A stretch of DNA of 64,000 nt from Parapedobacter pyrenivorans (GTDB lineage Bacteria > Bacteroidota > Bacteroidia > Sphingobacteriales > Sphingobacteriaceae). Shown here in pieces: positions 2,926-31,025 of the stretch (its first letter is position 1; the number at the start of each line of letters is the position of its first letter). Location: assembly GCF_014636865.1 (NCBI RefSeq), contig NZ_BMER01000001.1:1724718-1788717 (forward strand), given 5' to 3'. A program made the translations under genes and the position numbers. The notes beneath the pieces were generated by a model. That model did no database searches and was not told where the DNA came from. It was given only the letters and a program-made list of their open reading frames with translations.

Positions 2926-2970
2926 GTTAATCCTTTGTTAAGCTTTTTTTAATACAGTAAGCTATTTTAG
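2926..2970 (+). promoter_or_regulatory. GTTAA direct-repeat element, site A (upstream of GH95 operon)
   Basis: GTTAA occurs at 2926 and 2937 and a variant TTTAA at 2948, an exact 11-base spacing. A -7-like box TATTTTAG (2963-2970, one base off TAnnTTTG) begins 15 bases after the third unit. The core 2937-2953 differs from the core at 13061-13077 by one base. An 11-base direct repeat suggests tandem binding of a winged-helix activator on one face of DNA. Function is inferred. Confidence 0.55.
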
Positions 2971-2991
2971 CGCTTAATTATAAACTTAAAA

Positions 2992-2999
2992 TATGTTTG
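2992..2999 (+). promoter_or_regulatory. Possible Bacteroidota -7 box (TAnnTTTG)
   Basis: TATGTTTG matches the Bacteroidota -7 consensus exactly and lies about 140 bases before the GH95 start codon. The -33 side is poor (TTTTAG about 22 bases upstream). It is an alternative to the weaker box at 2963-2970. Confidence 0.35.
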
Positions 3000-3139
3000 C
3001 TACTAGATTTCAAGCGGTATCTTTTTATTGGTCTGTTTTGTGTCAGCAACTCGTTGGTGACATCGGGGCCGGTTTTGTGCAAATACTACAGGTAAGACTA
3101 CCAGAACGTAACACTAAATAAGGCAACTAAAACTAAACG

Positions 3140-6100
3140 ATGATGATAATCAAGAAATTCGCTGCTGTCGCGGCGCTGTCTTTATTTATTTGCACGGCCA
3201 CTTTTGCACAGGTGAAAGTGGCTTGTGTCGGGGCCAGCATCACGGAGGGATACGGCATTGATAATCCGACCGAAAGGGCCTATCCCGGGCAATTGCAAGC
3301 GCTGTTGGGCCGACGGTACCAGATCGCAAACTTCGGTGTCGGTGGGACTACCCTGCTGCGTAGCGGTGACTCACCCTATTGGGATACCCCAGCGTATCAG
3401 GATGCCTTGAAATTCAATCCGGATATCGTATTCATTGATTTGGGAGGCAACGATGCTAAAGCAGTGAATCGAGCTCATTATAGTGAAATCATCCGCGATT
3501 GCCAGGCTATGGTGCAGTCGTTCCAGGCCTTACCGTCGACGCCTAGGGTAATTCTTTTACTTCCATTTAAATCGTTTGAAACTGATACCAACCAAATATG
3601 GGATAAGGTCATCGTTAACGAGATCGCTCCACGTATGCGGCAGGCGGCGGCCGAAGAAGGCATTGAAGTGCTCGATATGCATGCGCTCCTGATCGATCAG
3701 CCGGCATTGTATATCGATAAGATCCATCCCGGTGAAAAAGCGGCCGGTATGATCGCTCGACGCCTGGCGGAACAGATTAACCAGGAATTCGATACGAAAT
3801 ATGATGTGTTCAAACAACTTGACAGACCCTTCACATCGGGCTCTTTTTATGGTTACGCTGAAGCAAGTTTTACATTGAATGGCCGTGAATGCAAGGTCGT
3901 GAAACCTAAGCGTGTAGCCAACGACCGGCCCTGGGTTTGGCGTGCTCGTTTCTGGGGGCATGAACCGCAAGCGGATATTGCGCTGTTGGAACGGGGCTAT
4001 CACATCGCTTATTGCGATGCGGCAGAAATGTTGGGCAATGAAACGGCTATTTCGTTGTGGAATATGTTCCATGAGATACTTTACAACGCCGGTCTGAATC
4101 GCAAGGCGCTTTTCGAAGGGATGAGCCGAGGAGGTGTATATGCATTGAATTGGGCGGCGGCCAATCCGGACAAGGTTGCGGGTGTATACGTAGACAATCC
4201 ACTGCTCGATATGCGGGCCTATGCGTTACTGAAAAAGGGCATGGCTGATGGCATCCGGCAAGCATACGGCTTAGCGACTGATGAAGCCGTAGCGGGTTTT
4301 ATGGGAAGCCCTATGGATAGAATCACGGATATCGTGCGTGGCAGCTATCCAATACTGATCCTTTGCGCAGATGCAGATGAGGCGGTAGACCCCCAAACGC
4401 AAACGCTTGCTTTTGAAAAGAAAGTGAAGGCTGCGGGTGGTGATATCACGGTTATCATGAAACCTGGATTCAAGCATCATCCCCATGCTTTCCCCAATCC
4501 TGCACCTATTGTTGATTTTATGTTGAAGGCTACGGCAGCAACTTCCGTTGCCAGTTCACGTACCGGAGATATCCGTGCGGAATGGGTAGATCGGACACGT
4601 TTTTCAAGCGAGGGTAACCGGCCGGCGGGGAATAACGTACTCTGGTATAAGCAATCGGCACGCGTATGGGAAGAAGCATTGCCGATCGGGAACGGCCAAT
4701 TGGGAGCCATGGTATTTGGCGGGGTAGCCGATGAGCGGATCCAGCTCAATGAAAGTTCACTTTGGGATGGCTATGCGTTGGACCCAAACAATCCGGAATC
4801 ACTGAAAACACTGCCCGAGGTCCGAAAATTACTTTTTGAAAATAAAAACAACGAGGCCGTAAAGATCGCTGAGCAGACGATGATGGGCCGTCCGCGCGGC
4901 GTGAAACCCTATCAATCGCTGGGTGAACTCTGGTTTGATACCCCCCATCTCGCGGTAACGGACTATACACGGAGCCTCGATCTGGCTACGGGTATTGTCA
5001 CGGTACGGTATCGTCACAACGGCATTTGGTATACCCGCGAAATCTTTGCTTCTGCAGATCATCAAGCCATTATCGTGCGGTTTACCCCCGGGAAAGGGGG
5101 TAAGATTACCGGTTCGTTTACGTTGCGACGTCAACAGGACGCCGTGGTGGAGCGGCACCCCACAGATGCCCAGTCGTTGCTGTTGAAAGGCAGACTACCC
5201 ATCAAAGACGCCAACGGCAATGCCCGTGGTATTCGGTTTGCCGCACAGTTAAAGGCGGTGACAGCTGGGGGTCGTGTCGCTTTTCATGACGATGTGATGG
5301 CTGTGACAGATGCCGATACGCTGACATTATATATCGCCGGGGCAACCAACCACCCAGGTCTTGAGCATATTTCCGATATACACGACTTTTCCGGAGTTCC
5401 GGAAGATACCTGCGCCGCGACCATCGCGCGTGCGATGCGTCAGCTCTATGAAGTGGTGAAAACGGCCCAGATTCGGGAGCATCAACAATACTATGGTCGC
5501 ACAGCGCTTGAACTGGCGGTTTCAGACGAAAAAGGTAAGACGCTGGCCACAGACGAACTATTGGATGATGCAAGGAAAACAGGTCAGCTTCATCCCTCGC
5601 TGGTAGAAACGTACTTTCAATACGGGCGATACCTGTTGATTGCCAGTTCGAGGCCCGGTACGATGCCTGCCAATTTGCAGGGATTGTGGGCATGGCAGAT
5701 GAATCCGCCTTGGAATGCGGATTATCATACCAATATCAACCTCCAGATGAATTACTGGCCGACGGAAATCGCCAACTTACCGGAAATGCATTTGCCCTTG
5801 TTCGACTTGACGGAGGCATTGGTAACGCCAGGCGAGCGCACAGCCAATGTATTATATGGAGCAGATGGCTGGGTAGTACACCACCTAACCGACGCTTGGG
5901 GATTTACGGCGCCTGCGGATGGGCCGCAAGGCATCTGGCCAATGGGGGCTGCATGGTTGGCACAACATCCATGGGAACACTATTGCTACACGTTGGACAC
6001 GGCTTTCCTGCGACAGCGTGCTTATCCATTGATGAAAGGGGCAGCAACGTTTATCCTCGATTTCCTGGTTGAAGCTCCAGCGGGCACACCGGTGGCCGGA

Positions 6101-6943
6101 AAATTAGTGACGAACCCTTCTTATTCGCCGGAGAATGCCTTTTTCCTGCCGAATGGTGAACAGTCGGTGTTTACCTACGGCGCAACAATGGACTTGGAGA
6201 TCATTCATGACCTACTAACAAACTGCATTGCGGCAACTAAGATATTAGGCATCGACAAAGATTTTAGGGAGGTGTGTTTGAAAACGCTTTCCCAGTTGGC
6301 GCCTATCCGGATCAGCGAAACAACCGGCCGGATAATGGAATGGGTAGAAGATTACAAGGAGGTAGAGCCGCACCATCGGCATACTTCCCATTTGTTTGCG
6401 CTTCACCCCGGCAACCAAATATCCGTGACCGGTACGCCTGAGCTTGCGGAAGCCGCCAGAAAAACCTTGATTGCACGTGGAGATGACGGTACCGGCTGGG
6501 GATTGGCCTGGAAGATCAATATGTGGAATCGTTTGCACAATGGTGACCATGCTTATAAACTGTTGGGGGTGTTATTGCGGGAGAAGACCTTGCCCAATTT
6601 GTTCGATAACCATCCTCCCTTCCAGATCGACGGGAATTTCGGTGCTACCGCCGCCATTGCGGAGATGCTTGTGCAAAGTCATGTGCCGCTTAAGGGAAAT
6701 CGCTTCGAAGTGCACTTGTTGCCTTCGTTACCTACAGACCTGGCCAATGGATCGGTAAAAGGATTGCGTGCGCGGGGAGGTTTTGCGATCGACCTTTCGT
6801 GGGAAAATGGAACGTTGAAGGAGGCCCGGATTTTTGCGGAAAAAGGCGGGAAGCTGACACTGCGGCTCGGCGGCAGGGTGGTCAACTTTAAAACCAAGAA
6901 AGGTGAAACATTGGAATTGAACGGTAGTTTGAAGCGTATCTGA
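3140..6943 (+). CDS. Three-domain enzyme: SGNH hydrolase, alpha/beta hydrolase, GH95 alpha-fucosidase-like
   Basis: The 1267-residue exported protein has a signal peptide (about 1-24) and three catalytic-type modules. Residues 25-210 are an SGNH/GDSL esterase: block I GASITEGYG with Ser33, GGND, and the Asp193/His196 pair in DKIHPG. Residues 225-465 are an alpha/beta hydrolase with nucleophile elbow GMSRGG (Ser329). Residues about 497-1267 are a complete GH95 enzyme: LPIGNGQLGAMVFGG, NINLQMNYWPTE with Asn865 and Asn867, and FQIDGNFGA with Asp1164. The Asn pair and Asp match the catalytic trio known in the bifidobacterial GH95 fucosidase. GH95 alone is usually 750-800 residues, so the two esterase-type modules are additions. 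The protein would remove acyl groups and alpha-L-fucose (or L-galactose) from one glycan. It is the first gene of an operon, downstream of a GTTAA-repeat promoter. Exact substrates are unknown. Confidence 0.9.
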   Translation: MMIIKKFAAVAALSLFICTATFAQVKVACVGASITEGYGIDNPTERAYPGQLQALLGRRYQIANFGVGGTTLLRSGDSPYWDTPAYQDALKFNPDIVFIDLGGNDAKAVNRAHYSEIIRDCQAMVQSFQALPSTPRVILLLPFKSFETDTNQIWDKVIVNEIAPRMRQAAAEEGIEVLDMHALLIDQPALYIDKIHPGEKAAGMIARRLAEQINQEFDTKYDVFKQLDRPFTSGSFYGYAEASFTLNGRECKVVKPKRVANDRPWVWRARFWGHEPQADIALLERGYHIAYCDAAEMLGNETAISLWNMFHEILYNAGLNRKALFEGMSRGGVYALNWAAANPDKVAGVYVDNPLLDMRAYALLKKGMADGIRQAYGLATDEAVAGFMGSPMDRITDIVRGSYPILILCADADEAVDPQTQTLAFEKKVKAAGGDITVIMKPGFKHHPHAFPNPAPIVDFMLKATAATSVASSRTGDIRAEWVDRTRFSSEGNRPAGNNVLWYKQSARVWEEALPIGNGQLGAMVFGGVADERIQLNESSLWDGYALDPNNPESLKTLPEVRKLLFENKNNEAVKIAEQTMMGRPRGVKPYQSLGELWFDTPHLAVTDYTRSLDLATGIVTVRYRHNGIWYTREIFASADHQAIIVRFTPGKGGKITGSFTLRRQQDAVVERHPTDAQSLLLKGRLPIKDANGNARGIRFAAQLKAVTAGGRVAFHDDVMAVTDADTLTLYIAGATNHPGLEHISDIHDFSGVPEDTCAATIARAMRQLYEVVKTAQIREHQQYYGRTALELAVSDEKGKTLATDELLDDARKTGQLHPSLVETYFQYGRYLLIASSRPGTMPANLQGLWAWQMNPPWNADYHTNINLQMNYWPTEIANLPEMHLPLFDLTEALVTPGERTANVLYGADGWVVHHLTDAWGFTAPADGPQGIWPMGAAWLAQHPWEHYCYTLDTAFLRQRAYPLMKGAATFILDFLVEAPAGTPVAGKLVTNPSYSPENAFFLPNGEQSVFTYGATMDLEIIHDLLTNCIAATKILGIDKDFREVCLKTLSQLAPIRISETTGRIMEWVEDYKEVEPHHRHTSHLFALHPGNQISVTGTPELAEAARKTLIARGDDGTGWGLAWKINMWNRLHNGDHAYKLLGVLLREKTLPNLFDNHPPFQIDGNFGATAAIAEMLVQSHVPLKGNRFEVHLLPSLPTDLANGSVKGLRARGGFAIDLSWENGTLKEARIFAEKGGKLTLRLGGRVVNFKTKKGETLELNGSLKRI

Positions 6944-6994
6944 GCATCGATACATAATTGCCAATTTTTTTGGATTTGTTTAAATTAATAGCAT

Positions 6995-7735
6995 ATGAAG
7001 ACGAAAAAAATGATGGGTGTATTGGCCATGTTATGCATCGCAGGGCAAGTACTTTTTGCCAGTGATGCATATGCCCAAAAAAGCAAAATTCTGGTTTTCT
7101 GCAAGACCGCAGGATTTCATCACAATTCCATTGAGCAGGGAATCCGAGCCATTCAGGAGTTGGGTTTGGCGAATGGAGTCAGCGTAGACAGTACGGTTAA
7201 TGCAACCAAATTTAATGATGCAACACTAAAGCAATACGATGCGGTGGTTTTTTTAAGCACAACGGGTGACGTGCTGGACGATGCTCAACAGCAAGCTTTT
7301 GAGCGGTACATTCAAGCCGGCGGTGGGTTTGTGGGTGTTCATGCCGCAACCGATTGCGAATATGACTGGCCTTGGTTCGGCAAATTGGTAGGGGCATATT
7401 TTGCAGGTCATCCGGCACCGCAGGAAGCATTGTTGGAAGTGATCAACCGGGATTTTCCGGCCACCAAGCCATTGCCGTCACAATGGAAACGGAAGGATGA
7501 GTGGTATCGGTTCAGGAAGCGGCCGGAGGGTGTTGAGGTGTTGATCAACCTAGACGAAGAAAGCTATGACGCCGGCGAGCAGGGTATGGGGAATCCGCAT
7601 CCGATTTCATGGTATCATGAATACGATGGCGGGAGATCCTTTTACACCGGACTTGGGCATACGGAGGAATCCTTTTCCGAACCGCTTTTCCTGCAGCACT
7701 TGTGGGGAGGTATCACCTATGCGATGGGGAAGTAA
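6995..7735 (+). CDS. ThuA-like domain protein, exported
   Basis: This 246-residue protein has a signal peptide ending near AYAQ (about residue 28) and one ThuA-like domain, which has a glutamine-amidotransferase-like fold. Recognisable blocks are KTAGFHHNSIEQG, YDAVVFLSTTGDVL, GGGFVGVHAATD, YFAGHP, HPISWYHEYDGGRSFYTGLG and a closing FLQHLWGGITYA. ThuA relatives in Bacteroidota usually sit beside DUF1080 proteins, oxidoreductases and cytochrome c dehydrogenase-like proteins and are linked to keto-sugar metabolism. Their reaction is poorly established. It lies 51 bases after the GH95 gene and 47 before the dehydrogenase-like lipoprotein, and is probably co-transcribed with both. Confidence 0.88.
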   Translation: MKTKKMMGVLAMLCIAGQVLFASDAYAQKSKILVFCKTAGFHHNSIEQGIRAIQELGLANGVSVDSTVNATKFNDATLKQYDAVVFLSTTGDVLDDAQQQAFERYIQAGGGFVGVHAATDCEYDWPWFGKLVGAYFAGHPAPQEALLEVINRDFPATKPLPSQWKRKDEWYRFRKRPEGVEVLINLDEESYDAGEQGMGNPHPISWYHEYDGGRSFYTGLGHTEESFSEPLFLQHLWGGITYAMGK

Positions 7736-7782
7736 TTGACTAACTAAGAAATTTAAAAGCGCAGATAACTAAAATCAAACAG

Positions 7783-9996
7783 ATGATTAAACAGTATGTA
7801 ATTGGGTTGATAGGAGCACTTTCGGTTGCAGGACTTTCGATGTCATGTAACGGGCCGATTAAGTCGCTCAAACGGGACGAAAACGGAAAAGTTATCGTCG
7901 ATACATTGCCATCGCCGTCGTACCTGTCGCCGGAGGAAAGCATGGCGCAGATTTACTTACAGCCCGGGTACCGGCTGGAGTTGGTGGCAAGCGAGCCGAT
8001 GATCCATGAGCCTGTTGCGATTGCATGGGATGCCAATGGGCGGATGTTTGTTGCGGAGATGAATACGTACATGCAGGACGTAAACGGTACCGGCGAAATG
8101 CAGCCGGTATGCTCCATCAAACGGTTGGAGGACACGGACGGAGACGGGAAGATGGATAAGGCGGTAGTCTTTATCGATAGTTTAGTACTGCCCCGGATGA
8201 TTCTCCCATTGGATGACCGGCTTTTGGTGGCGGAGACGTTCGATAACAGCATCTATAGTTACCGCGATAGTGATGGCGATGGAGTGGCCGATGAGCGGGA
8301 AAAGGTTTTCGTCAATGATCGGCAGAATACCAACAACCTCGAACACCAACGAAGTGGCCTGGTTTGGAATTTGGACAACCGGATTTACCTGACCGTCGAA
8401 AACGTACGTTACCGTTACGAACAAGGTAAGCTGGTTGCTGAAGAGCTGGAAGAAAGCCCCGGTGGACAATGGGGGCTGGCCAACGACGATTACGGCCGGT
8501 TATTTTACTCCGCCGCCGGGGCCGAGATCCCGGCACTGGGTTTTCAGCAGAATCCCTATTATGGCCGGCTCGATTTCAACGATCAGTATGATGACGAGTT
8601 CAAGGCCGTATGGCCGGTGATTTCCACACCCGACGTGCAGGGTGGGCTGAACAGGCTTCGCCCGGATAGCACGTTGAATCACTTTACGGCATGTACCGGG
8701 CAGTCGATTTTCCGGGGAACATCGTTGCCTGAAGATATGGTGGGAGACCTGTTGATCTGTGAACCGGTGGGAAGATTGATCAGGCGGGCAAAAGTAGCCA
8801 ATAATGGGGGTAAAATCTCGTTAACGAATGCATACGATCACGAAGAGTTCATTGCATCGTCTGACATGAACTTCAGGCCTGTAAATACACAAACCGGTCC
8901 CGACGGCAATCTCTACATCGTGGATATGTACCGGGGGATTATTCAGGAAAGCGAATGGACAAAAGAAGGAAGTTTCCTGCGGCCTAAAATTGTGGAGCGC
9001 GGACTAGACAAAAATATTGGCCGTGGCCGGATTTACCGACTGGTTTATGATGGAATGAAGCCAGACACAACCCGTCCAAAAATGCTGGACGAAACTCCGG
9101 CCCGGCTTGTTCAATACCTGCAGCATCCGAATGGTTGGTGGCGTGATAATGCACAGAAATTGTTGGTACTGCGCGGGGACACCAGCGTCGGAGATGCACT
9201 TCGAAAATTGGTCGCATCGTCGCCCGCACAGCTGGCACGTATCCATGCGTTATGGACATTGGATGGTTTGGGAATATTGAATCGGGCAACACTTGAAGCC
9301 GCGTTGGGTGATAAGGATGCCAAAGTTCGCAAGAATGCCGTATGGGTAGCTGATGGGGCTGCATGGGAAAACGATGCCGCGTTGTTCGATGCCTTGTACC
9401 CGTTGAAAGACGATCCGGATCCGGAAGTACGTTTTCAATTGGGACTTAATATGCGATTTGATGACTCCACCCCTGTCAAAGGACTCATCGATGAACTCCT
9501 AAAAACGTATCCGAATGATCTATTCGCATTATCGCAGCAACGGTATACAGACCGGTTGGTTGAACGGGCTAAAGCAGCAAAAGAAGCAGCATTGCTCGCC
9601 ATTGAAGACCAGAAACGGGTTAAACAAGGAGCGGTCATCTATAAGGAGTTTTGTGCATCGTGCCATGGGGCAGATGGCAAGGGGCTGAGTATCGGCGGTG
9701 GCGCAGCAGCTGCGCCCACACTTGCGGGCAATGCCGATGTAAACGGAGATCCGAACAAACTCATCAAAATTCTATTGCACGGACTCACCGGACCGATCGA
9801 TGGGAAGACGTATACCAATATGATGCCGGCGGTAGGTTCCAATGATGATGAATATATCGCTGCTGTGCTGAGTTATATCCGGAATGACCTGGGCAATAAG
9901 GCACCTGCCGTACGACCGGGTAGGGTAAAACGGGTCCGCGAAGAAACAGCGGGTCGGACCCAACCGTGGACAAAAGAAGAACTCGACAACAACTAA
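7783..9996 (+). CDS. Membrane-bound dehydrogenase-like lipoprotein with C-terminal cytochrome c
   Basis: The 737-residue lipoprotein has its lipobox cysteine at Cys22. A beta-propeller of the PVC-type dehydrogenase family (TIGR02604-like) covers about 55-430, with two EF-hand-like loops (DTDGDGKMD, DSDGDGVAD) and the family motif PDGNLYIVDMYRGIIQ. A helical HEAT-like stretch (about 450-600) and a cytochrome c domain (CASCHGADGKG, Cys624/Cys627/His628) follow. The fold suggests periplasmic oxidation of a sugar or polyol with electrons passed to haem. No family member has a firmly assigned substrate that I can name. It probably shares the operon of the GH95 and ThuA genes. The lipobox is loose (LSMSC), as is common in this phylum. 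Confidence 0.86.
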   Translation: MIKQYVIGLIGALSVAGLSMSCNGPIKSLKRDENGKVIVDTLPSPSYLSPEESMAQIYLQPGYRLELVASEPMIHEPVAIAWDANGRMFVAEMNTYMQDVNGTGEMQPVCSIKRLEDTDGDGKMDKAVVFIDSLVLPRMILPLDDRLLVAETFDNSIYSYRDSDGDGVADEREKVFVNDRQNTNNLEHQRSGLVWNLDNRIYLTVENVRYRYEQGKLVAEELEESPGGQWGLANDDYGRLFYSAAGAEIPALGFQQNPYYGRLDFNDQYDDEFKAVWPVISTPDVQGGLNRLRPDSTLNHFTACTGQSIFRGTSLPEDMVGDLLICEPVGRLIRRAKVANNGGKISLTNAYDHEEFIASSDMNFRPVNTQTGPDGNLYIVDMYRGIIQESEWTKEGSFLRPKIVERGLDKNIGRGRIYRLVYDGMKPDTTRPKMLDETPARLVQYLQHPNGWWRDNAQKLLVLRGDTSVGDALRKLVASSPAQLARIHALWTLDGLGILNRATLEAALGDKDAKVRKNAVWVADGAAWENDAALFDALYPLKDDPDPEVRFQLGLNMRFDDSTPVKGLIDELLKTYPNDLFALSQQRYTDRLVERAKAAKEAALLAIEDQKRVKQGAVIYKEFCASCHGADGKGLSIGGGAAAAPTLAGNADVNGDPNKLIKILLHGLTGPIDGKTYTNMMPAVGSNDDEYIAAVLSYIRNDLGNKAPAVRPGRVKRVREETAGRTQPWTKEELDNN

Positions 9997-10006
9997 AAGG
10001 AAGCGC

Positions 10007-10200
10007 ATGAAGGCAACCTTCACGCTGTTATTCAGTGTAGTTTCTTTTTTTCGTGTAAGGGATAAAAATGTGTCAGATACGTATAAGTATATCGGATCTG
10101 CCCGGTTAAACGGCAGGAAATTGAAAAGACCTTTTCTCTCACATGCTGATATCATGAATGGGGGGATGTTAGAGTTAGCGATGACCGACCGACCAACGAG
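10007..10200 (+). pseudogene. Remnant of a GH92 alpha-mannosidase (signal peptide fused to C-terminal end)
   Basis: The 64-codon frame starts 10 bases after the preceding stop. It opens with a signal-peptide-like stretch (MKATFTLLFSVVSFF) and passes directly into DKNVSDTYKYIGSARLNG, then LSHADIMNGG and LELAMTDRP. This matches the extreme C-terminus of the intact GH92 protein at 32477-34753 (NNVSETNKYIQSAKLNG, VSHEAVSQGG, LEFEMGDK). A full GH92 is about 750 residues, so around 90 percent of the gene has been deleted internally, leaving both ends joined. It cannot be catalytic. It implies this operon once ended with its own alpha-mannosidase. Confidence 0.72.
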
Positions 10201-10414
10201 GTAGTTCAGCGGTATCTAGCCTCATATCCTTGGGGTAGCAACGGATGGGGTCCGATAGACATGCCTCCGTTTGACAATTTGGCGTACATCCATTGCAGAT
10301 ATTGGCAAGTTTATCGATATTTGGAAGGCGAACGTAATCGCTGATTGATATCCATAATGCATCCGCTGGTTTAAGGCGTCTGTTGGCTATCGGTGAACTG
10401 CAATCTATAAATCT
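10201..10414 (+). other. Non-coding or degraded stretch after the GH92 remnant
   Basis: No intact gene is visible. Shifting frame by one base near 10190 lets translation continue to a stop at 10342-10344, with a non-random-looking run (YPWGSNGWGPIDMPPFDNLA, then aromatic-rich YIHCRYWQVYRYLEG). This may be the frameshifted tail of the deleted gene or of a second lost gene. I do not recognise it. The promoter of the regulator at 10415 should lie in 10345-10414, but I see no clear consensus box. Confidence 0.35.
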
Positions 10415-12979: not shown

Positions 12980-13060
12980 ACTCTTTCGATTATTTAGTTA
13001 CGTAATTTTTTTGGCTTACAGTGAGGTTTTTGGGTGGTGTTTTGCCGCCTAATCCTTGTT

Positions 13061-13106
13061 GTTAAGCTTTTGTTAATGCTTTGTTAGCGGGTTGGCGTTA
13101 GTCTTG
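13061..13106 (+). promoter_or_regulatory. GTTAA direct-repeat element, site B (upstream of oxidative operon)
   Basis: Three units GTTAA, GTTAA and GTTAG begin at 13061, 13072 and 13083, exactly 11 bases apart, separated by GCTTTT and TGCTTT. A -7-like TAGTCTTG (13099-13106) starts 16 bases after the third unit, the same spacing as at site C. No -33 TTTG sits at standard distance from the -7 box, which would fit an activator-dependent promoter. Confidence 0.6.
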
Positions 13107-13160
13107 GAGAAGTTTTGCGGAGGGGATCGCATTACACCAATTTCAAAACCATTAACCAAT

Positions 13161-14534: not shown

Positions 14535-14546
14535 ATTCGTTTCCTT

Positions 14547-16724: not shown

Positions 16725-16730
16725 TAGGAT

Positions 16731-17705
16731 ATGAAGAAAGAACTAAGCTTTCTGTTTTTAGTAGTTGGCGTGCTTTCGATTGCCAAAGCCGGCGACCGAC
16801 CGTTTCCGAGCGTCAAGATCGCCAATGGAGTAGTCCAAGCAACGCTGTATCTTCCGGACACCAGCGTCGGCTTTTACCGCGGAACCCGATTTGATTGGTC
16901 CGGCGTTATACCTGAGCTCGTCTACGAAGGTCATCAGTACCATGGCGAATGGTTTACGGAACACGATCCGCTGGGGCATGACGGCATTGTGGGTCCGGTG
17001 GAGGAATTTACGCCATTGGGGTTTGAGCAGGCGGCAATAGGCGATGCATTCGTGAAAATCGGTGTGGGAAGCCTGGTCAAACCCGACGAGAAGCCCTATG
17101 CCTTTCACCGACGGTATGCGTTTTCCGATCGGGGGCGCTGGCAGGTGAAGGCCGGGAAGCAACAGGTGGATTTTACCCACGTGCTAAACACGGCCGGCTA
17201 TGCCTACGTGTACAAAAAAACGGTTCAATTACCAGACGGAGCCGCCAAGATGGTGCTAACGCATTCCTTGGAAAATACCGGCGAGAAAGTGATTGAGACC
17301 CGCGTGTACAACCATAATTTTTTTGTGATCGACAAGGAGCCCACCGGTCCGGGCTATCGTATTACGTTACCCGGTGATACGTTGCATCCGATTGGCGCCA
17401 AGGGGTTAAATGATATTGCCCGCTTGGAGGGCAACGAACTTATTTTTCTTCGCACCCTGAAGCGCGGCGAGCAAGCGTATTTTGCAGACCTCGGCGGCGG
17501 GCAACCCGTCGACTATGACATTACAGTACGCAACGTAAAAAGCGGAGCCGGCGTTAGAATCACGGGCGACCGACCCATTTCCAAGATGGTATTCTGGTCG
17601 TCGCCCACAACGGTCTGTCCGGAGCCTTATCTAGATGTCCGGGTAGCACCCGGAGAAACCTATCGTTGGACGATTGCCTACGAATATCATCGCAATACTC
17701 AATAA
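16731..17705 (+). CDS. Exported galactose mutarotase-like protein of unknown function
   Basis: This 324-residue protein has a signal peptide (cleavage near AKAG, residue 21). I see no catalytic signature of a named enzyme. Aldose-1-epimerase-like features support a mutarotase/GH-type beta-sandwich fold: GFYRGTRFDWSGVIPEL, YEGHQYHGEWFTEHDP, TLTHSLENTGEKVIETRVYNHNFF-type blocks, and a late VFWSSPTTVCPEP YLDV segment. It starts 6 bases after the PQQ enzyme and is translationally close. A periplasmic aldose epimerase would supply the beta-anomer that quinoprotein aldose dehydrogenases usually prefer. That role is inferred from context only. Confidence 0.65.
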   Translation: MKKELSFLFLVVGVLSIAKAGDRPFPSVKIANGVVQATLYLPDTSVGFYRGTRFDWSGVIPELVYEGHQYHGEWFTEHDPLGHDGIVGPVEEFTPLGFEQAAIGDAFVKIGVGSLVKPDEKPYAFHRRYAFSDRGRWQVKAGKQQVDFTHVLNTAGYAYVYKKTVQLPDGAAKMVLTHSLENTGEKVIETRVYNHNFFVIDKEPTGPGYRITLPGDTLHPIGAKGLNDIARLEGNELIFLRTLKRGEQAYFADLGGGQPVDYDITVRNVKSGAGVRITGDRPISKMVFWSSPTTVCPEPYLDVRVAPGETYRWTIAYEYHRNTQ

Positions 17706-17720
17706 ATCTAATAATATACG

Positions 17721-18164
17721 ATGAAGAGAACAATGATTGTATTAACGGTTGTAACCATGGCTATGGGTTGCAATACCCCCAACAAAGCAGTGGTTTCGGA
17801 AGCAGACGTTACCGCAGCGGTTGAATCCTTCCGCGAGGTGATGCTGAATCCGGATCAGTCCGCATTTGAGGCGCTTTTTCACGAGGCGTTGACGTATGGG
17901 CATTCCAACGGATTGGTGGAGTCCCAAGAAACATGTATTGCATCGATGGTGAGCGGCAAGTTTAAGTTCACCGGTTTAACTTTTTCCCAGCAGACCATCG
18001 ATATCGTAGGCAATACGGCCATCGTGAGGCATGAGTTAGTCGGCCAAACGCATGATGCAGACAAGGAGCCGGGCGAAGTGCACCTGAAGGTGATGATGGT
18101 ATGGGTACAAGATAGCGGAAAATTGCGATTGGTCGCTCGGCAGGCGGTAAAAATTAATTCATAA
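17721..18164 (+). CDS. NTF2-like (DUF4440/SnoaL-type) lipoprotein
   Basis: The 147-residue protein has a lipobox MAMGC (Cys17). The rest is a single NTF2-like cone fold: a first helix (VTAAVESFREVMLNPDQSAF), LFHEALTYGHSNGLVESQE, then alternating strands (VGNTAIVRHELVG, HLKVMMVWVQDSGKLRLVARQ). The pattern is that of DUF4440 proteins, which bind small ligands and occasionally act as isomerases. It lies 15 bases after the mutarotase-like gene and 11 before the transporter, so it belongs to the operon. A ligand-binding or accessory role at the periplasmic face is possible; no catalytic residues can be assigned. Confidence 0.75.
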   Translation: MKRTMIVLTVVTMAMGCNTPNKAVVSEADVTAAVESFREVMLNPDQSAFEALFHEALTYGHSNGLVESQETCIASMVSGKFKFTGLTFSQQTIDIVGNTAIVRHELVGQTHDADKEPGEVHLKVMMVWVQDSGKLRLVARQAVKINS

Positions 18165-18175
18165 GCATTTTTAGG

Positions 18176-19429
18176 ATGAATACCTTAGCACCCTCCCGTT
18201 GGTATCGGATTATCCCGATTGTTTTCATTACCTATAGCCTTGCGTACCTCGATCGGGCCAACTTCGGTTTTGCCGCTGCAGGCGGCATGGCCGAAGACCT
18301 GGGTATTACCCCGGGTATGTCGTCGCTGCTGGGCTCGCTTTTTTTTCTGGGTTATTTTTTCTTTCAGATTCCCGGAGCACATTATGCCGCGCATAGAAGC
18401 GCAAAGAAGCTCATTTTTTGGTCGCTGATCCTTTGGGGCGGATTCGCAACCGCCACGGGTATGGTGAACAACGTAACCGCCCTGGTGGTCATTCGTTTTA
18501 TGCTGGGCGTCGTAGAAAGTGCGGTCATGCCGGCGATGCTGATTTTGCTGAGCCAATGGTTTACCAAAGGGGAGCGTTCGCGGGCAAACACCTTTCTGAT
18601 TTTGGGCAATCCGGCAACCGTGCTTTGGATGTCGGTGCTCTCCGGCTACCTGATTGACTCGATGGGGTGGCGTTGGATGTTTATCATACAAGGCCTCCCG
18701 GCGATTCTATGGGCCGTCATCTGGTGGAAGATGATCGACGAGAAGCCCACGGATGCAAGTTGGTTGACCGAGCCGGAACGCGATGCCATCGAAGCGCAGT
18801 TAAAGGAAGAACAGCAAGGAATAAAGGCGGTAAAAAACTACGCCGAAGCGTTCCGCTCGAAGACCGTGATTTTACTGTGCCTACAATACCTGCTCTGGAG
18901 CGTAGGGCTCTATGGTTTTGTCATGTGGCTGCCCTCCATTATTAATTCCGTACCCGATATGGATATCGTTACAACGGGGTGGCTTTCATCGGTACCGTAT
19001 CTGTTGGCCATTGTGTCGATGCTGGCAGCTTCGTATTACGCAGATAAGACATTGAACCGGAAGCTATTTATATGGCCGTTTTTGCTGGTGGGCGCGGTGG
19101 CATTCTACCTGTCTTACCTGGTAGGTACGGACAATTTCTGGCTATCATTTAGCTTGTTGGTTATCGCAGGCGGCGCAATGTATGCCCCCTACGGTCCGTT
19201 TTTCGCGGTCATCACCGAAATCCTACCGCGCAATGTGGCGGGAGGTGCGCTGGGCTTAATAAACAGTATGGGTGCGTTGGGTTCATTCGGCGGCGCATAC
19301 GTGGTGGGCTACTTAAATGGCCATACCGGTGGTTTCGGTGCGTCTTACATCCTGATGGCGGCTTCCTTGCTCTTTTCGGCTATCTTAACGATGGTGGTCG
19401 TCAAACAGCCAAGTAATAAGACCGCTTAA
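18176..19429 (+). CDS. MFS transporter, anion:cation symporter type (acid sugar importer)
   Basis: This 417-residue inner-membrane protein shows twelve hydrophobic segments. The ACS-family signature is near the start (YLDRANFGFAAAGGMAEDLG), followed by GSLFFLGYFFFQIPG and the long central loop after helix 6 (residues about 185-220). The family (ExuT, GudP, DgoT relatives) imports hexuronates, galactonate, glucarate and related anions with protons. Placed between two PQQ dehydrogenases and in the operon of a dehydratase, it most likely imports the acid or keto-deoxy acid made in the periplasm. Ligand choice is an inference. Confidence 0.88.
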   Translation: MNTLAPSRWYRIIPIVFITYSLAYLDRANFGFAAAGGMAEDLGITPGMSSLLGSLFFLGYFFFQIPGAHYAAHRSAKKLIFWSLILWGGFATATGMVNNVTALVVIRFMLGVVESAVMPAMLILLSQWFTKGERSRANTFLILGNPATVLWMSVLSGYLIDSMGWRWMFIIQGLPAILWAVIWWKMIDEKPTDASWLTEPERDAIEAQLKEEQQGIKAVKNYAEAFRSKTVILLCLQYLLWSVGLYGFVMWLPSIINSVPDMDIVTTGWLSSVPYLLAIVSMLAASYYADKTLNRKLFIWPFLLVGAVAFYLSYLVGTDNFWLSFSLLVIAGGAMYAPYGPFFAVITEILPRNVAGGALGLINSMGALGSFGGAYVVGYLNGHTGGFGASYILMAASLLFSAILTMVVVKQPSNKTA

Positions 19430-19464
19430 TAGTTAACTAGTGAATTAACCAATTTTAAACTAAC

Positions 19465-21726
19465 ATGGCAATCATGCAAAAGGCTCCTTTTTTGGGAGCT
19501 GCCCTTTTATCAGTATGTTGGGGGTGTCAGACAACGAACGACACCCGGTATAAAGAATGGAGTGATTACGGTGGAGGCCCCGATCATTCCAAATACGTGG
19601 ATTACAAGCAAATTACCCGTGAAAATGTCAATCAGCTGGAGGTAGCATTTGTTTATCCGAGCGGCGATAATGTGAATTACCGTTTCAATCCGATTGTCGT
19701 TGACGGGGTCATGTACGTGCTGGCGAAGAACAACTCGCTGGTAGCCATCAATGCCGCCACCGGCGAAGAGTTGTGGATCCACGCCAACCTGCGTGGAATT
19801 ATACAGCGGGGGGTGAACTTCTGGCAGAGCAAAGACAAGAAGGAAAAGCGGTTGCTGATCTGCCTGAATAATACCTTACAGGCCATCGATGCAAACACCG
19901 GGCAATCCATTACTACCTTTGGGAATGGAGGGTATGTAGATCTCAAACAAGGGCTCGACCGCGATCCGGCTACATTTGGCCGGGCCACGTCCACTACTCC
20001 GGGTAAGGTGTTTGACGACTTGATTATCCTTGGCTCTGCGCCCGGCGAAAATCTTTTTTCGGGACCTGGCCACTTACGTGCGTACAACGTCATTTCCGGC
20101 GAACTGGAATGGGTATTCCATACCATTCCGCATCCCGGCGAGTATGGGTACGATACCTGGCCCGAAGAAGCCTATAAATATGTAGGCGGCACCAACACAT
20201 GGGGTGAAATTTCGGTCGATGAAGACCGTGGTATCGCGTATTTTCCCTTAGGATCACCTACTTACGACTATGACGGGGCAGACCGCGCCGGCAGTAACTT
20301 GTTTGGAAATTGCATCCTCGCATTGGATGCACGCACCGGCAAGCGGCTTTGGCATTTACAGACCGTTCATCACGATATCTGGGATTATGACCTTGCCGCA
20401 GCGCCGCAGCTCATTACGGTAAACCACGAGGGTAAAAAAGTTGATGCAGTGGCGGTTGCCTCCAAGCATGGATTTCTCTTTGTGTTCGACCGGGTAACGG
20501 GCGAACCGCTTTGGCCAATCGAAGAGCGGCCGGTTCCCGCCAGTGATATGCCGAACGAAGAGGCGTGGCCTACGCAGCCATTCCCTACCGTAGTACCGCC
20601 CTTTAATCGTCAACTGGTCAGCGAAGACGACATCAATCCCTATTTTTCGGCCGAGGAGAAGGAAAAATGGACCGCACGGGTTGCGGCCGCAAAAAAGGGC
20701 CTTTTTCACCCGCTTTCCGACCAGTATGAGGTCGTAACCAATCCCGGAGCGGTGGGTGGCGCAAACTATGGGAATACTGCGGCCGACCCTCAGAACGGGA
20801 TTGTGTATGTGCAGACCCAAGAGCTTGTAGACTTTTACAGTCTCAAAAAGCGCGAACCCGCACCCCAACGGGGCGGCTTCGGCGGCGGCCGGAACCCCGG
20901 GGTATCGCCCGAGCGCATTGCCCAGGGTAAGGCCCTGTACGCGCAGCACTGCATCGCTTGCCACGGTGAGAACCGGGCGGGCATCGATGGGTTGGGTACC
21001 ACGTTGGTGAACCTAAGCACTAAAGTTAATAGCGAAGCCTTCAAGAGCATCTTGGCAGTGGGTAAGGGGCGCATGCCGGGATTTCCCCACCTGAATGAAA
21101 CGGATGTCGCAGCAATTTACGCTTACCTTACACCAGAGGCGCAGCGGGGAGGAGGAAATCGGGGCGGCGATGCACCCGAGTTGCCAGAAGGCCCGGTGGT
21201 AGCCTCCGGTGGCGTCGCGGTCGATCTGCCCGCATCGGGTGGCCAGCGCATGACCGACTACCCCAGCACCTATACCGGACCGCGATCTGAGTACGTCGAA
21301 ACCAATAACTGGGGGCTCGGCGTGCCCAATTTATTGACGCCTCCCTGGTCGCTTATCGTTGCCTATGATTTGAACGAAGGGAAAATCAAATGGAAAATTC
21401 CACTGGGGAATGACGATAGCATACCCGGTAGCGAAAACCTGAGCATGCCCAACGGGTCACAAGGAAAAGGGATGGTGGTTACATCAACAGGCCTATTGTT
21501 TTCCACCTGTTTGGACGGCCGCGTTTACGCTTATAATACAGATGATGGCCAGATGGTCTGGTCGGCCGATTTAGGCAGGAACAATCCCGGTGGGCTTCCG
21601 GCCATGTATGAGGTAGATGGTAGGCAGTACTTGGTCGTCTGTTCGGTAGGCAGTTTGAAAGACAAGTCGAAAGCCGAGTCTGATGTGCCCAAAGGATATG
21701 TAGTCTATGCCTTGCCGAAGAGGTAA
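19465..21726 (+). CDS. PQQ-dependent dehydrogenase with inserted cytochrome c domain (copy 2)
   Basis: The 753-residue lipoprotein has its lipobox at CWGC (Cys21). It shares the architecture of the enzyme at 14547: quinoprotein propeller (WSDYGGGPDHSKYVDYKQIT, AINAATGEELWIHAN, HHDIWDYDLAAAPQLI), inserted cytochrome c (CIACHGENRAG, Cys496/Cys499/His500) and closing blades (VAYDLNEGKIKWKIPLGND). Gly/Arg/Pro-rich linkers (RGGFGGGRNPG; GGGNRGGD) flank the cytochrome insert and are absent from copy 1. The two copies are diverged paralogues in one operon, so they may oxidise different sugars or successive positions. It sits 35 bases after the MFS gene. Confidence 0.88.
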   Translation: MAIMQKAPFLGAALLSVCWGCQTTNDTRYKEWSDYGGGPDHSKYVDYKQITRENVNQLEVAFVYPSGDNVNYRFNPIVVDGVMYVLAKNNSLVAINAATGEELWIHANLRGIIQRGVNFWQSKDKKEKRLLICLNNTLQAIDANTGQSITTFGNGGYVDLKQGLDRDPATFGRATSTTPGKVFDDLIILGSAPGENLFSGPGHLRAYNVISGELEWVFHTIPHPGEYGYDTWPEEAYKYVGGTNTWGEISVDEDRGIAYFPLGSPTYDYDGADRAGSNLFGNCILALDARTGKRLWHLQTVHHDIWDYDLAAAPQLITVNHEGKKVDAVAVASKHGFLFVFDRVTGEPLWPIEERPVPASDMPNEEAWPTQPFPTVVPPFNRQLVSEDDINPYFSAEEKEKWTARVAAAKKGLFHPLSDQYEVVTNPGAVGGANYGNTAADPQNGIVYVQTQELVDFYSLKKREPAPQRGGFGGGRNPGVSPERIAQGKALYAQHCIACHGENRAGIDGLGTTLVNLSTKVNSEAFKSILAVGKGRMPGFPHLNETDVAAIYAYLTPEAQRGGGNRGGDAPELPEGPVVASGGVAVDLPASGGQRMTDYPSTYTGPRSEYVETNNWGLGVPNLLTPPWSLIVAYDLNEGKIKWKIPLGNDDSIPGSENLSMPNGSQGKGMVVTSTGLLFSTCLDGRVYAYNTDDGQMVWSADLGRNNPGGLPAMYEVDGRQYLVVCSVGSLKDKSKAESDVPKGYVVYALPKR

Positions 21727-21769
21727 CGCAGTATATATAAAAAATTGAGAACACTGATTATAAAATACT

Positions 21770-22681
21770 ATGGATAGAAAAGCATTTATTTTTCGGGCCG
21801 GTGGCATTGTCTTGTCGGCGTGGGTATCACCCGCATTGGCTAAGGTTGGATTACCCAAGTCGGGGATGGATCGTATTGCCCTGGGCACACTGCTCTTCAG
21901 GTATCGATTCCAACGGACAAAACCCAAGCAATGGGATGTAATCAAAGACGAATTGACCTTATTGGATGTCCCAGAACATCATCGTGATAAATTTGGCATT
22001 CGCAAGATCGAATTCTGGAACGAACATTTTGAGTCGTTGGAACTGGATTACCTGGGGAAACTGCGTGATAAAATCAAGTCGGCCAAGGCGGAACTGCTGA
22101 ACATACAGATCGACCGGATTTCCTATAACCTGGCCGCTACCGACGAAGGCGAACGCCAGCGGAGCCTGGCAGACGTGAAGCAGTGGATGGATGCCGCATC
22201 CTTTCTCGGGTCGAAGTGCGTACGGATAAACCCCGGTGCACCAAGTGGTTCCGTCGAAAAAAGCATCGAATCACTCACGGAGCTGAATCGCTATGCAAAA
22301 CAGAAAAAGCTGACCATCATTACTGCCAATCATTTCGGCATCGAAATGGATGCCGACAAACACGTGCAGATTGTTCGGGGATCGGGGGTTTATACGGAGC
22401 CCGACTTCGGCAATTACATACCCCAATACAGCACGGAGGTCATGATGGAATCGCTTGCTAAGATTCTGCCTTATGCCCATGTAGTTTCGGCTAAAATGGT
22501 CGACTTCAACGACCAGATGGAGCATGTCTCGTACGATTTTGATCGGTGTATCCAATTAGCTGAAAACGCGGGGTTCAGAGGCACCTATGTTATTGCTCAA
22601 TGGAGCGGCAAATTTCAGGACATCGATTACGACAACGTAGCCAGGTGGGGAATCGACCATGTGAGGAATCATATCAAATAA
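21770..22681 (+). CDS. Exported sugar phosphate isomerase/epimerase-like TIM barrel
   Basis: This 303-residue protein begins with a hydrophobic leader (RKAFIFRAGGIVLSAWVSPALA), so it is probably exported. A xylose-isomerase-like (AP endonuclease family 2) barrel follows: GIRKIEFWNEHFESL, SLADVKQWMDAASFLGSKCVRINPG, LTIITANHFGIEMD, HVVSAKMVDFND, and GFRGTYVIAQWSG. Candidate metal ligands are Glu in the IEFW block, His in NHFG and Asp in VDFND. Despite the family name, exported members are unlikely to act on phosphosugars; isomerisation or epimerisation of a free or keto sugar is more plausible. It is the penultimate gene of the oxidative operon, 13 bases before the next start. Confidence 0.78.
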   Translation: MDRKAFIFRAGGIVLSAWVSPALAKVGLPKSGMDRIALGTLLFRYRFQRTKPKQWDVIKDELTLLDVPEHHRDKFGIRKIEFWNEHFESLELDYLGKLRDKIKSAKAELLNIQIDRISYNLAATDEGERQRSLADVKQWMDAASFLGSKCVRINPGAPSGSVEKSIESLTELNRYAKQKKLTIITANHFGIEMDADKHVQIVRGSGVYTEPDFGNYIPQYSTEVMMESLAKILPYAHVVSAKMVDFNDQMEHVSYDFDRCIQLAENAGFRGTYVIAQWSGKFQDIDYDNVARWGIDHVRNHIK

Positions 22682-22694
22682 TGGGGGATTGGTA

Positions 22695-24635
22695 ATGAAA
22701 AAGATAGTAATTGTATTGTCGGTCCTGGCGTGTACCATTGGGTTTTCCCATGCACAGCAGGCTGGGGAGACCGAAGGTCGGGGACTTAGTTTTCAGCCCG
22801 ACTACCGATTCGAAGGATCTAGTCTCACCCGTTGGAGGAAATTTGGAACAGCCGACTGGCGGGCCGAAAGCGGTGAATTGATTGGAAAGCCCAGAGATAC
22901 CTCAAGCGCAAGTTTATTGATACTGGACCAATCTTTCCAGGATGTGACCGTAAATACCTTGGTCAGGATGGTTGGCGATGGAGAAGCGGGGATACTTTTC
23001 AGGTTGGAAAAAGCCGATACGGGGTGGACCGGTGTTTTGGTCTCGTTGAAAAACGAGGAATCGGCAGCCTATGGTTTGGTGCTTGATCCAGAAGGAAAAG
23101 AATTAAGCCGTACACTTTTACGGCGTGCCGGGGGAATGATGCGGGTAGCGCCGCCGCCCGATCCCAACGCTTCAAATCCATCTAGCAACAACAGGAGACA
23201 ACCCAGTCGGGGTGGGGACCGGATAGAACCGGTTTTGCCGATACCACGGCCCCAGACGGCTTTCCAAGTCAATGCGTGGAACCAAGTGGAATGTGTATTG
23301 GATATGAATATTTTGCGCGGGTTTATCAACGATGGCAATGGTCCGGGCGGGGCAGCGGACAGTGAATTTGGCGAGTACGGCCCCCTCGCTTTGTATGTGA
23401 AGGGCGACGCGGAAATACGATACAAAGACTTCAAATACAAAGATCTCGCAATTCGGAATACGCCAAAAGAAGCAACGTCGGCGCGTTATGAAGTGCAGCA
23501 GCTTAGCGATATGTATTATTCATTTAGCTCCGCGGCAGCAGATTTCAATCGGGATGGCATCATGGATATCGTCGCTGGTCCCCATATCTATTATGGTCCG
23601 GATTATACGTCCTATCGCGAGATTTTCCAAGGGGTGACGTACAATCCCTCCCAGCAATTTTCGGAAGTGAATTGCCAGTATGCCTATGATTTTAATGGCG
23701 ATGGCTGGCCAGATGTGTTTTCTGCGGCCCCATTTGGCCGCTTGTACATCAATCCTAAAGGCGAGTCCCGGCGCTGGGAAATGCATGCTGTCATTCCGGG
23801 TAACATCAACTCAGAAGTGACAGTGTTTACGGATATCGATGGCGATGGTCGGCCCGAAATTGTATACGGAACCAGTGGCGACCGATTGCTTAACTATGCA
23901 AAATTTGATCCAGCAGATCCTACCCAGCCTTGGGAATCTTATCCGGTATCTGATACCGGATATTATACGGCACATGGCTTCGGTGTCGGCGATATCAACG
24001 GCGATGGCCGGCCGGACATTACCAATCCTAACGGATGGTGGGAGCAGCCCGCGCAGCTTGATACGAGTGCTCCTTGGGTATATCATCCCGTGGCTTTCGG
24101 GCGATACGGTCATCGGGGCGGCGGGATGGGAGGCAGTATTATGGCGGTATACGATGTAAATGGAGACGGATATAACGATGTGGTAACCAGTCTTAATGCA
24201 CATGGATTCGGTTTGGCTTGGTACGAACAGCAGCGCAATGAACGCGGTGAAATCGCATTCAAGCGTCATATGATTATGGATGACTACTCAACAGCCAATG
24301 CCGGTGATGTCACATTTTCACAGTTGCATGGTACCACATTTGGGGACATCGATGGCGATGGCATCCCTGATTTTATCGCTGGGAAGCGGTATTGGTCGCA
24401 CCTGGATACACACCTAGACCCCGACCCTAGCGGTGCCGCGGTACTGTATTGTTTCCGGACGGTCCGCGATATCAATGCGCCCGGTGGCGCACGCTTTGAA
24501 CCGGAACTGGTGCATAATCGATCGGGTGCCGGATCTGATTTATTAGCGGTCGATTTGAACGGTGACGGTAAGTTGGAAATCGTTTCATCTACAAATCGGG
24601 GTACATTTATTTTTTGGAATAAAACTACTGATTAA
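22695..24635 (+). CDS. DUF1080-like domain fused to FG-GAP/VCBS repeats, exported
   Basis: I start this at the ATG at 22695 (646 residues); a TTG two codons upstream is less likely. After a signal peptide (to about HAQQ) comes a concanavalin-like DUF1080-type domain (about 30-245; SLTRWRKFGTADWRAESGEL, FQDVTVNTLVRMVGDGEAGI, GLVLDPEGKELS). A propeller of FG-GAP/VCBS repeats follows with seven calcium loops: DFNRDGIMD, DFNGDGWPD, DIDGDGRPE, DINGDGRPD, DVNGDGYND, DIDGDGIPD and DLNGDGKLE. Some DUF1080 proteins hydrolyse 3-keto-glycosides. Combined with oxidoreductases in the locus, a keto-glycoside binding or hydrolysing role is possible but unproven. It ends the oxidative operon. Confidence 0.82.
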   Translation: MKKIVIVLSVLACTIGFSHAQQAGETEGRGLSFQPDYRFEGSSLTRWRKFGTADWRAESGELIGKPRDTSSASLLILDQSFQDVTVNTLVRMVGDGEAGILFRLEKADTGWTGVLVSLKNEESAAYGLVLDPEGKELSRTLLRRAGGMMRVAPPPDPNASNPSSNNRRQPSRGGDRIEPVLPIPRPQTAFQVNAWNQVECVLDMNILRGFINDGNGPGGAADSEFGEYGPLALYVKGDAEIRYKDFKYKDLAIRNTPKEATSARYEVQQLSDMYYSFSSAAADFNRDGIMDIVAGPHIYYGPDYTSYREIFQGVTYNPSQQFSEVNCQYAYDFNGDGWPDVFSAAPFGRLYINPKGESRRWEMHAVIPGNINSEVTVFTDIDGDGRPEIVYGTSGDRLLNYAKFDPADPTQPWESYPVSDTGYYTAHGFGVGDINGDGRPDITNPNGWWEQPAQLDTSAPWVYHPVAFGRYGHRGGGMGGSIMAVYDVNGDGYNDVVTSLNAHGFGLAWYEQQRNERGEIAFKRHMIMDDYSTANAGDVTFSQLHGTTFGDIDGDGIPDFIAGKRYWSHLDTHLDPDPSGAAVLYCFRTVRDINAPGGARFEPELVHNRSGAGSDLLAVDLNGDGKLEIVSSTNRGTFIFWNKTTD

Positions 24636-24673
24636 CAGTTATTTATGATAATAATACCTCGTGTATTAATCTT

Positions 24674-24719
24674 GTTAATCTTTTGTTAATTATTTGTTAT
24701 AGTCCCATCTGTATCCTTG
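24674..24719 (+). promoter_or_regulatory. GTTAA direct-repeat element, site C (upstream of SusC operon)
   Basis: GTTAA, GTTAA and GTTAT start at 24674, 24685 and 24696, 11 bases apart. TATCCTTG (24712-24719) starts 16 bases after the third unit, as at site B. The 17-base core matches site B in 16 positions. Confidence 0.6.
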
Positions 24720-24934: not shown

Positions 24935-25037
24935 TCTTACGTAAAAGCAAGACTTATCTGGGCAAATTATCGAAACAGGAATCATGCTCAGATACCACTT
25001 AATCAGCAATTATTTAACCAATTATCTTTTTTTTGGG

Positions 25038-28181: not shown

Positions 28182-28278
28182 AAATTATGAAGATGAAACC
28201 TACCATGTCAGCGCCTACTGACTAAAAAGGCGATGAAAATGCAGGTTCCATTAGGCCATTAAAATAAATTATTTTCTG

Positions 28279-30207: not shown

Positions 30208-30229
30208 TTAACGTGTTGATACAAGTATT

Positions 30230-30967: not shown

Positions 30968-30984
30968 GGTAGCCTAATCATTTG

Positions 30985-31025
30985 ACGGTTGTCTGGCACC
31001 GCTGCGTGCTGGACAACCGTTTTTT
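30985..31025 (+). terminator. Rho-independent terminator after SusC-SusD-DUF3823
   Basis: Nine-base perfect stem (ACGGTTGTC at 30985-30993 with GACAACCGT at 31012-31020), 18-base loop, then six T residues. It lies 18 bases after the stop and separates the binding genes from the enzyme genes that start at 31102. Confidence 0.88.

Follow-up and report, generated by a model that had tools for sequence, protein, structure and literature searches.

PhoB/OmpR proteins carry a winged helix and bind head-to-tail DNA repeats of 11 bp. SARP regulators, such as AfsR of Streptomyces and EmbR of Mycobacterium, follow a rule of direct repeats of 11 (or 22) bp whose 3' copy lies near the -10 box; the rule is given in PMC10936776, where AfsR is described with two 11-bp repeats from -40 to -19 and a contact to sigma region 4. 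With regard to the glycan loci of Bacteroidota, PMC3878776 names three regulator types: SusR-like, HTCS, and ECF. The SusR-like type, from Bacteroides, is a membrane protein with a periplasmic sensor and a cytoplasmic C-terminal DNA-binding domain that serves glycan genes, and its predicted motifs in that paper consist of two boxes with 67 or 77 bp between their centers. The HTCS type joins a large periplasmic sensor and a DNA-binding domain in one polypeptide, beside SusC/SusD, and the two examples of its repeats given there have boxes of 14-16 bp and spacers of 5-6 bp.

The window analyzed here is a stretch of 64,000 nucleotides from Parapedobacter pyrenivorans, in which the sequence-only reading had described one repeat element before three operons:

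2926-2970, + strand: site 1, upstream of the GH95 operon; units GTTAA at 2926, GTTAA at 2937, and TTTAA at 2948; -7-like box TATTTTAG at 2963-2970, 15 bases from the start of the third unit
13061-13106, + strand: site 2, directly 3' of the regulator gene and 5' of the enolase/PQQ operon; units GTTAA at 13061, GTTAA at 13072, and GTTAG at 13083; -7-like box TAGTCTTG at 13099-13106, 16 bases from the start of the third unit
24674-24719, + strand: site 3, upstream of the SusC operon; units GTTAA at 24674, GTTAA at 24685, and GTTAT at 24696; -7-like box TATCCTTG at 24712-24719, 16 bases from the start of the third unit

When the window sequence was read again, these coordinates, the 11-base steps between units, and the box distances of 15, 16, and 16 proved exact to the base. 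The first two units are GTTAA in all three sites, the third is TTTAA, GTTAG, or GTTAT, and each box matches five of the six fixed bases of TAnnTTTG. At up to three mismatches, TTGTTAAKNNTTTGTTA has 10 matches in the window versus 3.4 expected, a number that none of 100 shuffles reaches; its four exact matches all lie within sites 2 and 3, and site 1 contributes one match with one mismatch and one with two. The bare GTTAA triple is a weaker signal in the window (12 matches at up to three mismatches versus 4.7 expected, with 2 of 100 shuffles reaching 12). Three TTAA words in 11-bp steps produce stop codons in all six frames; consequently, the intergenic location of the sites, which this content dictates, was rejected as a sign of function.

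The refuting observation named in advance was a motif equally common elsewhere. In the genome of 5,925,444 bases (5.93 Mb), the pattern GTTAAN4TTGTTAAN4TTGTTA, whose string was taken from the window only, has three matches at up to one mismatch, and these are exactly the three window sites, all of them <12 kb from the regulator gene at 10415-12979. Six more matches appear at two mismatches, and the reversed control gives one at up to two mismatches in the whole genome.

Each site precedes an operon on its own strand, with limits inferred from gene order:

3140-9996, + strand: target operon 1, after site 1; GDSL esterase-GH95 fusion (3140-6943), ThuA (6995-7735), DUF7133-cytochrome c (7783-9996)
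13161-24635, + strand: target operon 2, after site 2; first an enolase-superfamily gene, a PQQ dehydrogenase, gene 16731 (no assigned function), DUF4440, and MFS, then a second PQQ dehydrogenase, a TIM-barrel gene (AP_endonuc_2), and an FG-GAP/3-keto-disaccharide hydrolase-like gene
24984-38556, + strand: target operon 3, after site 3; SusC, SusD, DUF3823, GH99-like gene 31102, GH92 (32477-34753), genes 34758 and 36047 (no assigned family), GH99-like gene 37291

The product of 3140-6943 is composite: one protein combines a GDSL esterase with a GH95 domain, and the part between them has hydrolase matches that are weak and fall short of the Pfam cut-off. In operon 3, the GH99-like pair (31102-32436 and 37291-38556) shares 69% identity and represents paralogues; the two products have no Pfam match themselves, and the name derives from their 45-50% identity to proteins with weak GH99 matches. 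In operon 2, both PQQ dehydrogenases (14547-16724 and 19465-21726) carry cytochrome c domains, and their sharing an operon with sugar genes suggests that sugar oxidation is coupled to glycan uptake.

The candidate reader of the repeats is encoded between sites 1 and 2, in a single copy in the genome:

10415-12979, + strand: proposed regulator, 854 aa
residues 6-21: predicted signal helix
residues about 34-203: predicted jelly roll
residues about 238-539: predicted Kelch-type propeller
residues 554-581: predicted transmembrane helix, one only
residues about 618-713: predicted winged helix, cytoplasmic
residues 721-853: predicted BTAD-like helices, cytoplasmic

Pfam recognizes only Kelch-like repeats in this protein, and the leading Kelch model also matches 30 of 30 aligned relatives. 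AlphaFold2, applied to the full protein with 30 relatives (mean pLDDT 82.0, pTM 0.57), places the elements in the order signal helix, beta sandwich, propeller, transmembrane helix 554-581, and cytoplasmic part; the names jelly roll and propeller are a reading of the strand order plus the Kelch matches. The cytoplasmic 250 residues, modeled alone with 43 sequences, reach a pLDDT of 92.6. A Foldseek comparison of this model with the PDB gives six matches at E ≤ 0.001, split evenly between chains of AfsR complexes and chains of EmbR, with best E values of 2.0e-5 (AfsR) and 3.7e-5 (EmbR), TM scores of 0.58-0.67, and identities of 12-14%. Because all six are AfsR or EmbR, the cytoplasmic part is predicted to have a SARP-like fold.

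Sequence searches of the cytoplasmic domain against NCBIfam, Pfam, and PDB gave nothing useful: no Trans_reg_C or BTAD Pfam profile matched at E ≤ 0.1 among 30 regulator members, and a PDB search with the 43-sequence profile had no match at E ≤ 1. A receiver domain, for which these 30 members have no Pfam match, is likewise absent from the element order of the model. The sequence-only reading had offered both PhoB/OmpR and SARP proteins as owners of such a winged helix, and the predicted match to AfsR and EmbR, with no PhoB/OmpR-type receiver, favors the second option.

How, then, does this protein compare with the described systems? Like SARPs, it has a predicted winged helix followed by a BTAD-like helical domain, and the sites linked to it are direct repeats with an 11-bp step that keep a short, nearly fixed distance to a -10-type box, here a -7 box. 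It differs from them in its 12-14% identity and lack of a SARP profile match, in its predicted C-terminal DNA-binding part, which in the model lies behind a periplasmic propeller and a transmembrane helix instead of at the N-terminus, in its three units versus the two of AfsR, and in its setting, a Bacteroidota -7 promoter and genes for glycans, not antibiotics. Since profile recognition and an N-terminal DNA-binding domain are classical features that it lacks, the 10415 product is a variant of the SARP kind and is not filed as a SARP member. It shares with the SusR-like type the predicted membrane location, periplasmic sensor, cytoplasmic C-terminal DNA-binding domain, and glycan genes, but its three units at 11 bp set it apart, by motif description, from a 67/77-bp direct repeat. 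With HTCS it has in common the large periplasmic sensor and DNA-binding domain in one polypeptide beside SusC/SusD, although neither the 10415 product nor the 30 members give a Pfam match to kinase, receiver, or AraC domains. Finally, it resembles PhoB/OmpR proteins in its predicted winged helix and 11-bp head-to-tail repeats, whereas a BTAD-like helical domain is predicted and no N-terminal receiver was found.

Relatives of the regulator occur in 141 of the 400 order-level genomes searched, P. pyrenivorans included. The neighborhoods compared, with flanks of up to 10 kb, are the best 80 of 303 loci from a scan of named genomes; among these, the closest named relatives belong to Parapedobacter species (70-76% identity). 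In these 80 loci, the triple TTTGTTAA, another string taken from the window only, has 21 matches per strand at spacing 11 and up to four mismatches, versus at most one per strand at spacings of 7-10 and 12-16; reversed and scrambled control units never exceed three per strand, whatever the spacing. A sequence-free search for 11-bp periodicity over any nine columns was too insensitive to use (at its loosest threshold, 9 of the 80 close loci at spacing 11, 9 at 12, and 8 at 14, and 0 of 20 distant loci).

A consensus from 68 sites reads RTTAATSNTTTRTTAATSWTTTNTTAAK, then about ten unconserved bases and a TAnnTTTG-like box. From it a loosened pattern of 26 bases was built and counted at up to two mismatches in 81 sources, the 80 loci plus the window; it finds 115 sites (95 distinct sequences) in 69 of the 81, a count that is partly circular, as are those in the 24 regulator-bearing and 20 negative genomes below, because the pattern was loosened after regulator-near sites had been viewed. 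The real sequence gives 18, 63, and 35 matches with zero, one, and two mismatches (34 of the last once overlaps are merged), and none of six Markov simulations has any match at zero or one mismatch or more than one at two. Sites are present in the sources from Parapedobacter (4 of 4), Pedobacter (13 of 16), Mucilaginibacter (23 of 28), Dyadobacter (15 of 17), Sphingobacterium (3 of 4, two of the four being MAGs), Hufsiella (2 of 2), Paraflavitalea, Ferruginibacter, and Niastella (1 of 1 each), other MAGs (5 of 6), and the window. Twelve of the 81 sources have no site at up to two mismatches; six of these (L082, L085, L089, L097, L103, and L132) show a weaker match of two units plus box beside the regulator, in a search that has no chance level.

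Orientation is nearly uniform: 114 of the 115 sites point at the next ORF (at least 120 aa, simple ORF caller), versus 2786 of 4735 random intergenic places, and beyond the remaining one there is no ORF before the locus ends. In 42 of the 81 sources, a total of 44 sites directly flank the regulator gene (19 just 3' of it, 23 divergent before it, and 2 before it on its own strand). The position of these last two (L065 9630 and L067 9421), immediately upstream of the regulator gene, suggests that the protein controls its own expression in those genomes.

What do the sites front? The 113 ORFs that follow them were clustered, and Pfam was searched with a single representative of almost every cluster. 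The genes are mostly glycan-related: SusC (23), GH92 (20), GH3 (15), DUF5703/GH95-like (14), GH99-like (11, with a match below the Pfam cut-off), GH95 (6), and GH2 (4), then the enolase family, PQQ, and ROK kinase (3 each), the regulator (2, in L065 and L067), and cytochrome c (2). Single ORFs are CBM6, GH31, MG2, fasciclin, and an ECF sigma factor, whose gene lies 685 bases beyond its 2-mismatch site, together with SASA esterase, found twice. Counted over the 32 largest clusters of ORFs of at least 120 aa, the families around the regulator in the 81 sources are GH92 (58), GH99-like (47), SusC (33), DUF3823 (25), SusD (24), GH3 (19), DUF5703/GH95-like (17), GDSL (16), GH43 (13), and GH95 (9). 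GH92 and GH99 are families of enzymes that cleave alpha-mannose, so one may guess that the ligand of the regulator is a mannoside.

The loosened pattern was run on 24 regulator-bearing genomes, and distances to the listed close-clade regulator genes were counted in 21 of them (G064, G280, and G103 were left out). Within 20 kb of a regulator lie 25 of 29 perfect sites (0.3 expected), 25 of 40 with one mismatch (0.4 expected), and 19 of 81 with two (0.8 expected). A near site with zero or one mismatch is present in 20 of the 21; the exception, G248, has a single 2-mismatch site near its regulator. The same pattern at zero or one mismatch is absent from 20 genomes, four of the same genus, drawn from the 259 without a regulator relative at E ≤ 1e-10, and their 39 two-mismatch places compare with 50 for the reversed control. 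The refuting case set by the sequence-only reading, a motif equally common inside genes or before unrelated housekeeping genes, finds no echo at zero or one mismatch in these related genomes. Outside the own genome, all five domain matches lie in four stretches of DNA, taken from three genomes that belong to other families; these stretches contain no site at up to one mismatch, and their one 2-mismatch match is not before a same-strand ORF.

Some sites lie elsewhere. Four of the 29 perfect sites in the 21 genomes are away from a listed regulator, and three of them front glycan genes. Two belong to a remote cluster in G081, on the minus strand of L161 (sites at 4930, 11478, and 14378), where they precede a GH99-like gene with a weak Pfam match and a SusC gene, the third site, with two mismatches, fronting a DUF5010-CBM35 gene; as the contig has no listed regulator gene, the three sites suggest control in trans. 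Another precedes a GH2 gene in G161, and the last, in G187, fronts an ORF of 136 aa of no recognized family. In P. pyrenivorans itself, the loosened pattern has a 1-mismatch site at C1:395393, with a box-like sequence ~3 bases too near and no recognized glycan gene among the neighboring ORFs (those on the left we take to be for pantothenate synthesis); this site counts against a glycan regulon with one regulator.

The regulator family itself offers a further control. Distant relatives (L141-L160, 25-32% identity) keep the SARP-like domain. Their predicted recognition helix is KVKNSRGVTINHLRK or similar in 17 of 20, and L158 to L160 have an intermediate helix; the 14 close-clade sequences shown have SARNNRSVNIAKLK or nearly so. 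The triple TTTGTTAA at spacing 11 and up to four mismatches is absent from all 20 distant-clade neighborhoods, including that of L158, whose helix is partly similar. A mostly different helix and no motif in the distant clade point to the regulator clade, rather than glycan operons generally, as owner of the motif. A word search in the distant clade finds 10 of 20 loci with TTTTAA words spaced by 11 bp and 7 of 20 with a spacing of 12 bp, and TTTTAAT triples at up to three mismatches number 11 at 11 bp versus 2 at 12 bp; TTTTAAT is not claimed as their operator, since the sites inspected looked irregular.

Might another regulator, e.g., a PhoB/OmpR response regulator encoded elsewhere, bind the repeats, with 10415 as a mere neighbor? 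The binding mode of that family, likewise head-to-tail at 11 bp, and the perfect sites far from a listed regulator gene are in its favor, but nine or more named genera have the sites together with this gene while the other neighbors change. The sites are missing at zero or one mismatch from the 20 genomes that lack the gene, and the 20 distant-clade neighborhoods lack them as well. Moreover, other transcription factors are seldom seen nearby: among those seen in the clusters of ORFs of at least 120 aa, the LacI type leads with 7 of the 81 sources, followed by AraC types and LuxR-type response regulators (5 each), and none of the 11 non-regulator families present in more than 7 sources is a transcription factor. 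We regard this explanation as unlikely.

The preferred reading is that of one local glycan regulon, in which the three elements would be operators of the 10415 product acting as a transmembrane SARP-like activator, and judged from the sequence data it is very likely. It builds on computed features, i.e., the sites, their 11-bp spacing, the tie to the regulator clade, orientation, a near-fixed -7 distance, target functions, and a SARP-like predicted fold. The comparative tests agree with three points of the original proposal: a single regulon, 11-bp repeats read by a winged helix of the SARP type, and the product of 10415 as putative binder. In this regulon, the protein would span the inner membrane and sense a glycan-derived ligand on the periplasmic side, by means of its jelly roll and propeller. 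In the cytoplasm, its SARP-like winged-helix domains may dock next to one another on three RTTAAT(S)NTTT units, with one unit to each helical turn. We infer direct binding, activation over repression, the number of protomers, and the nature of the ligand.

The distance to the promoter box gives this picture its geometry. A TAnnTTTG box (at least five of six bases) stands at offset 11-13 in 81 of the 115 sites and at other offsets within 0-26 in 15; 34 lack such a box at offset 11-13, and 7 lack even four of six. In a Flavobacterium study (PMC9723704), the sigma-A box TAnnTTTG spans -12 to -5; the third unit would therefore start at -28/-27, the second at -39/-38, and the first at -50/-49, and, compared with the -40 to -19 of AfsR, units 2 and 3 would be nearly in its register, with an extra unit one turn upstream. 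Units 2 and 3 would thus occupy the -33 region, 15-16 bases before the sigma-A -7 box, and the bound array could contact sigma region 4 and substitute for the -33 element. By analogy with AfsR, the array would most naturally activate by replacing the -33 contact. The outcome would be the switching on of SusC/SusD uptake, GH92/GH95/GH99-like hydrolases, and PQQ sugar oxidation.

The same geometry could serve a repressor, with the array covering the promoter until a ligand releases the 10415 product, and the overlap of the repeats with the would-be -33 region fits this. However, the -7 box keeps an almost constant distance from the repeats, which a repressor would not need and which SARP activators share (their 3' repeat lies 8 bp from the -10; PMC10936776), and repression is rated as unlikely. 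That no specific protein reads the repeats, which would then be AT-rich promoter DNA of the UP-like or curved kind or have arisen by chance, is highly improbable: the motif is indeed AT-rich and just 5' of promoter-like boxes, but enrichment is confined to the 11-bp spacing and falls to background at 10 and 12, and no site with zero or one mismatch appears in 20 related genomes or in simulated sequence.

The transmembrane activator reading has implications beyond this window. No earlier description of such a regulator was found among the best literature matches for SARP/BTAD in Bacteroidetes and for Kelch in Pedobacter polysaccharide utilization, a search that covered few subscription papers. 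We consider it probable that these proteins form a further class of Bacteroidota glycan regulators, beside the HTCS, SusR-like, and ECF sigma systems: one transmembrane protein would combine a jelly-roll/Kelch sensor with a SARP-like activator, read a three-fold 11-bp operator, and act directly on the sigma-A promoter, with no phosphorelay.

For the biology of these bacteria, the finding provides a testable operator code, three RTTAAT-like units in 11-bp steps plus TAnnTTTG, together with a named candidate binder, and this code would serve glycan operons of Parapedobacter, Pedobacter, Mucilaginibacter, Dyadobacter, Sphingobacterium, Hufsiella, and others. To our knowledge, promoter activation in the SARP style is known only from Actinobacteria; these data suggest that it also works in Bacteroidota, and from the membrane.
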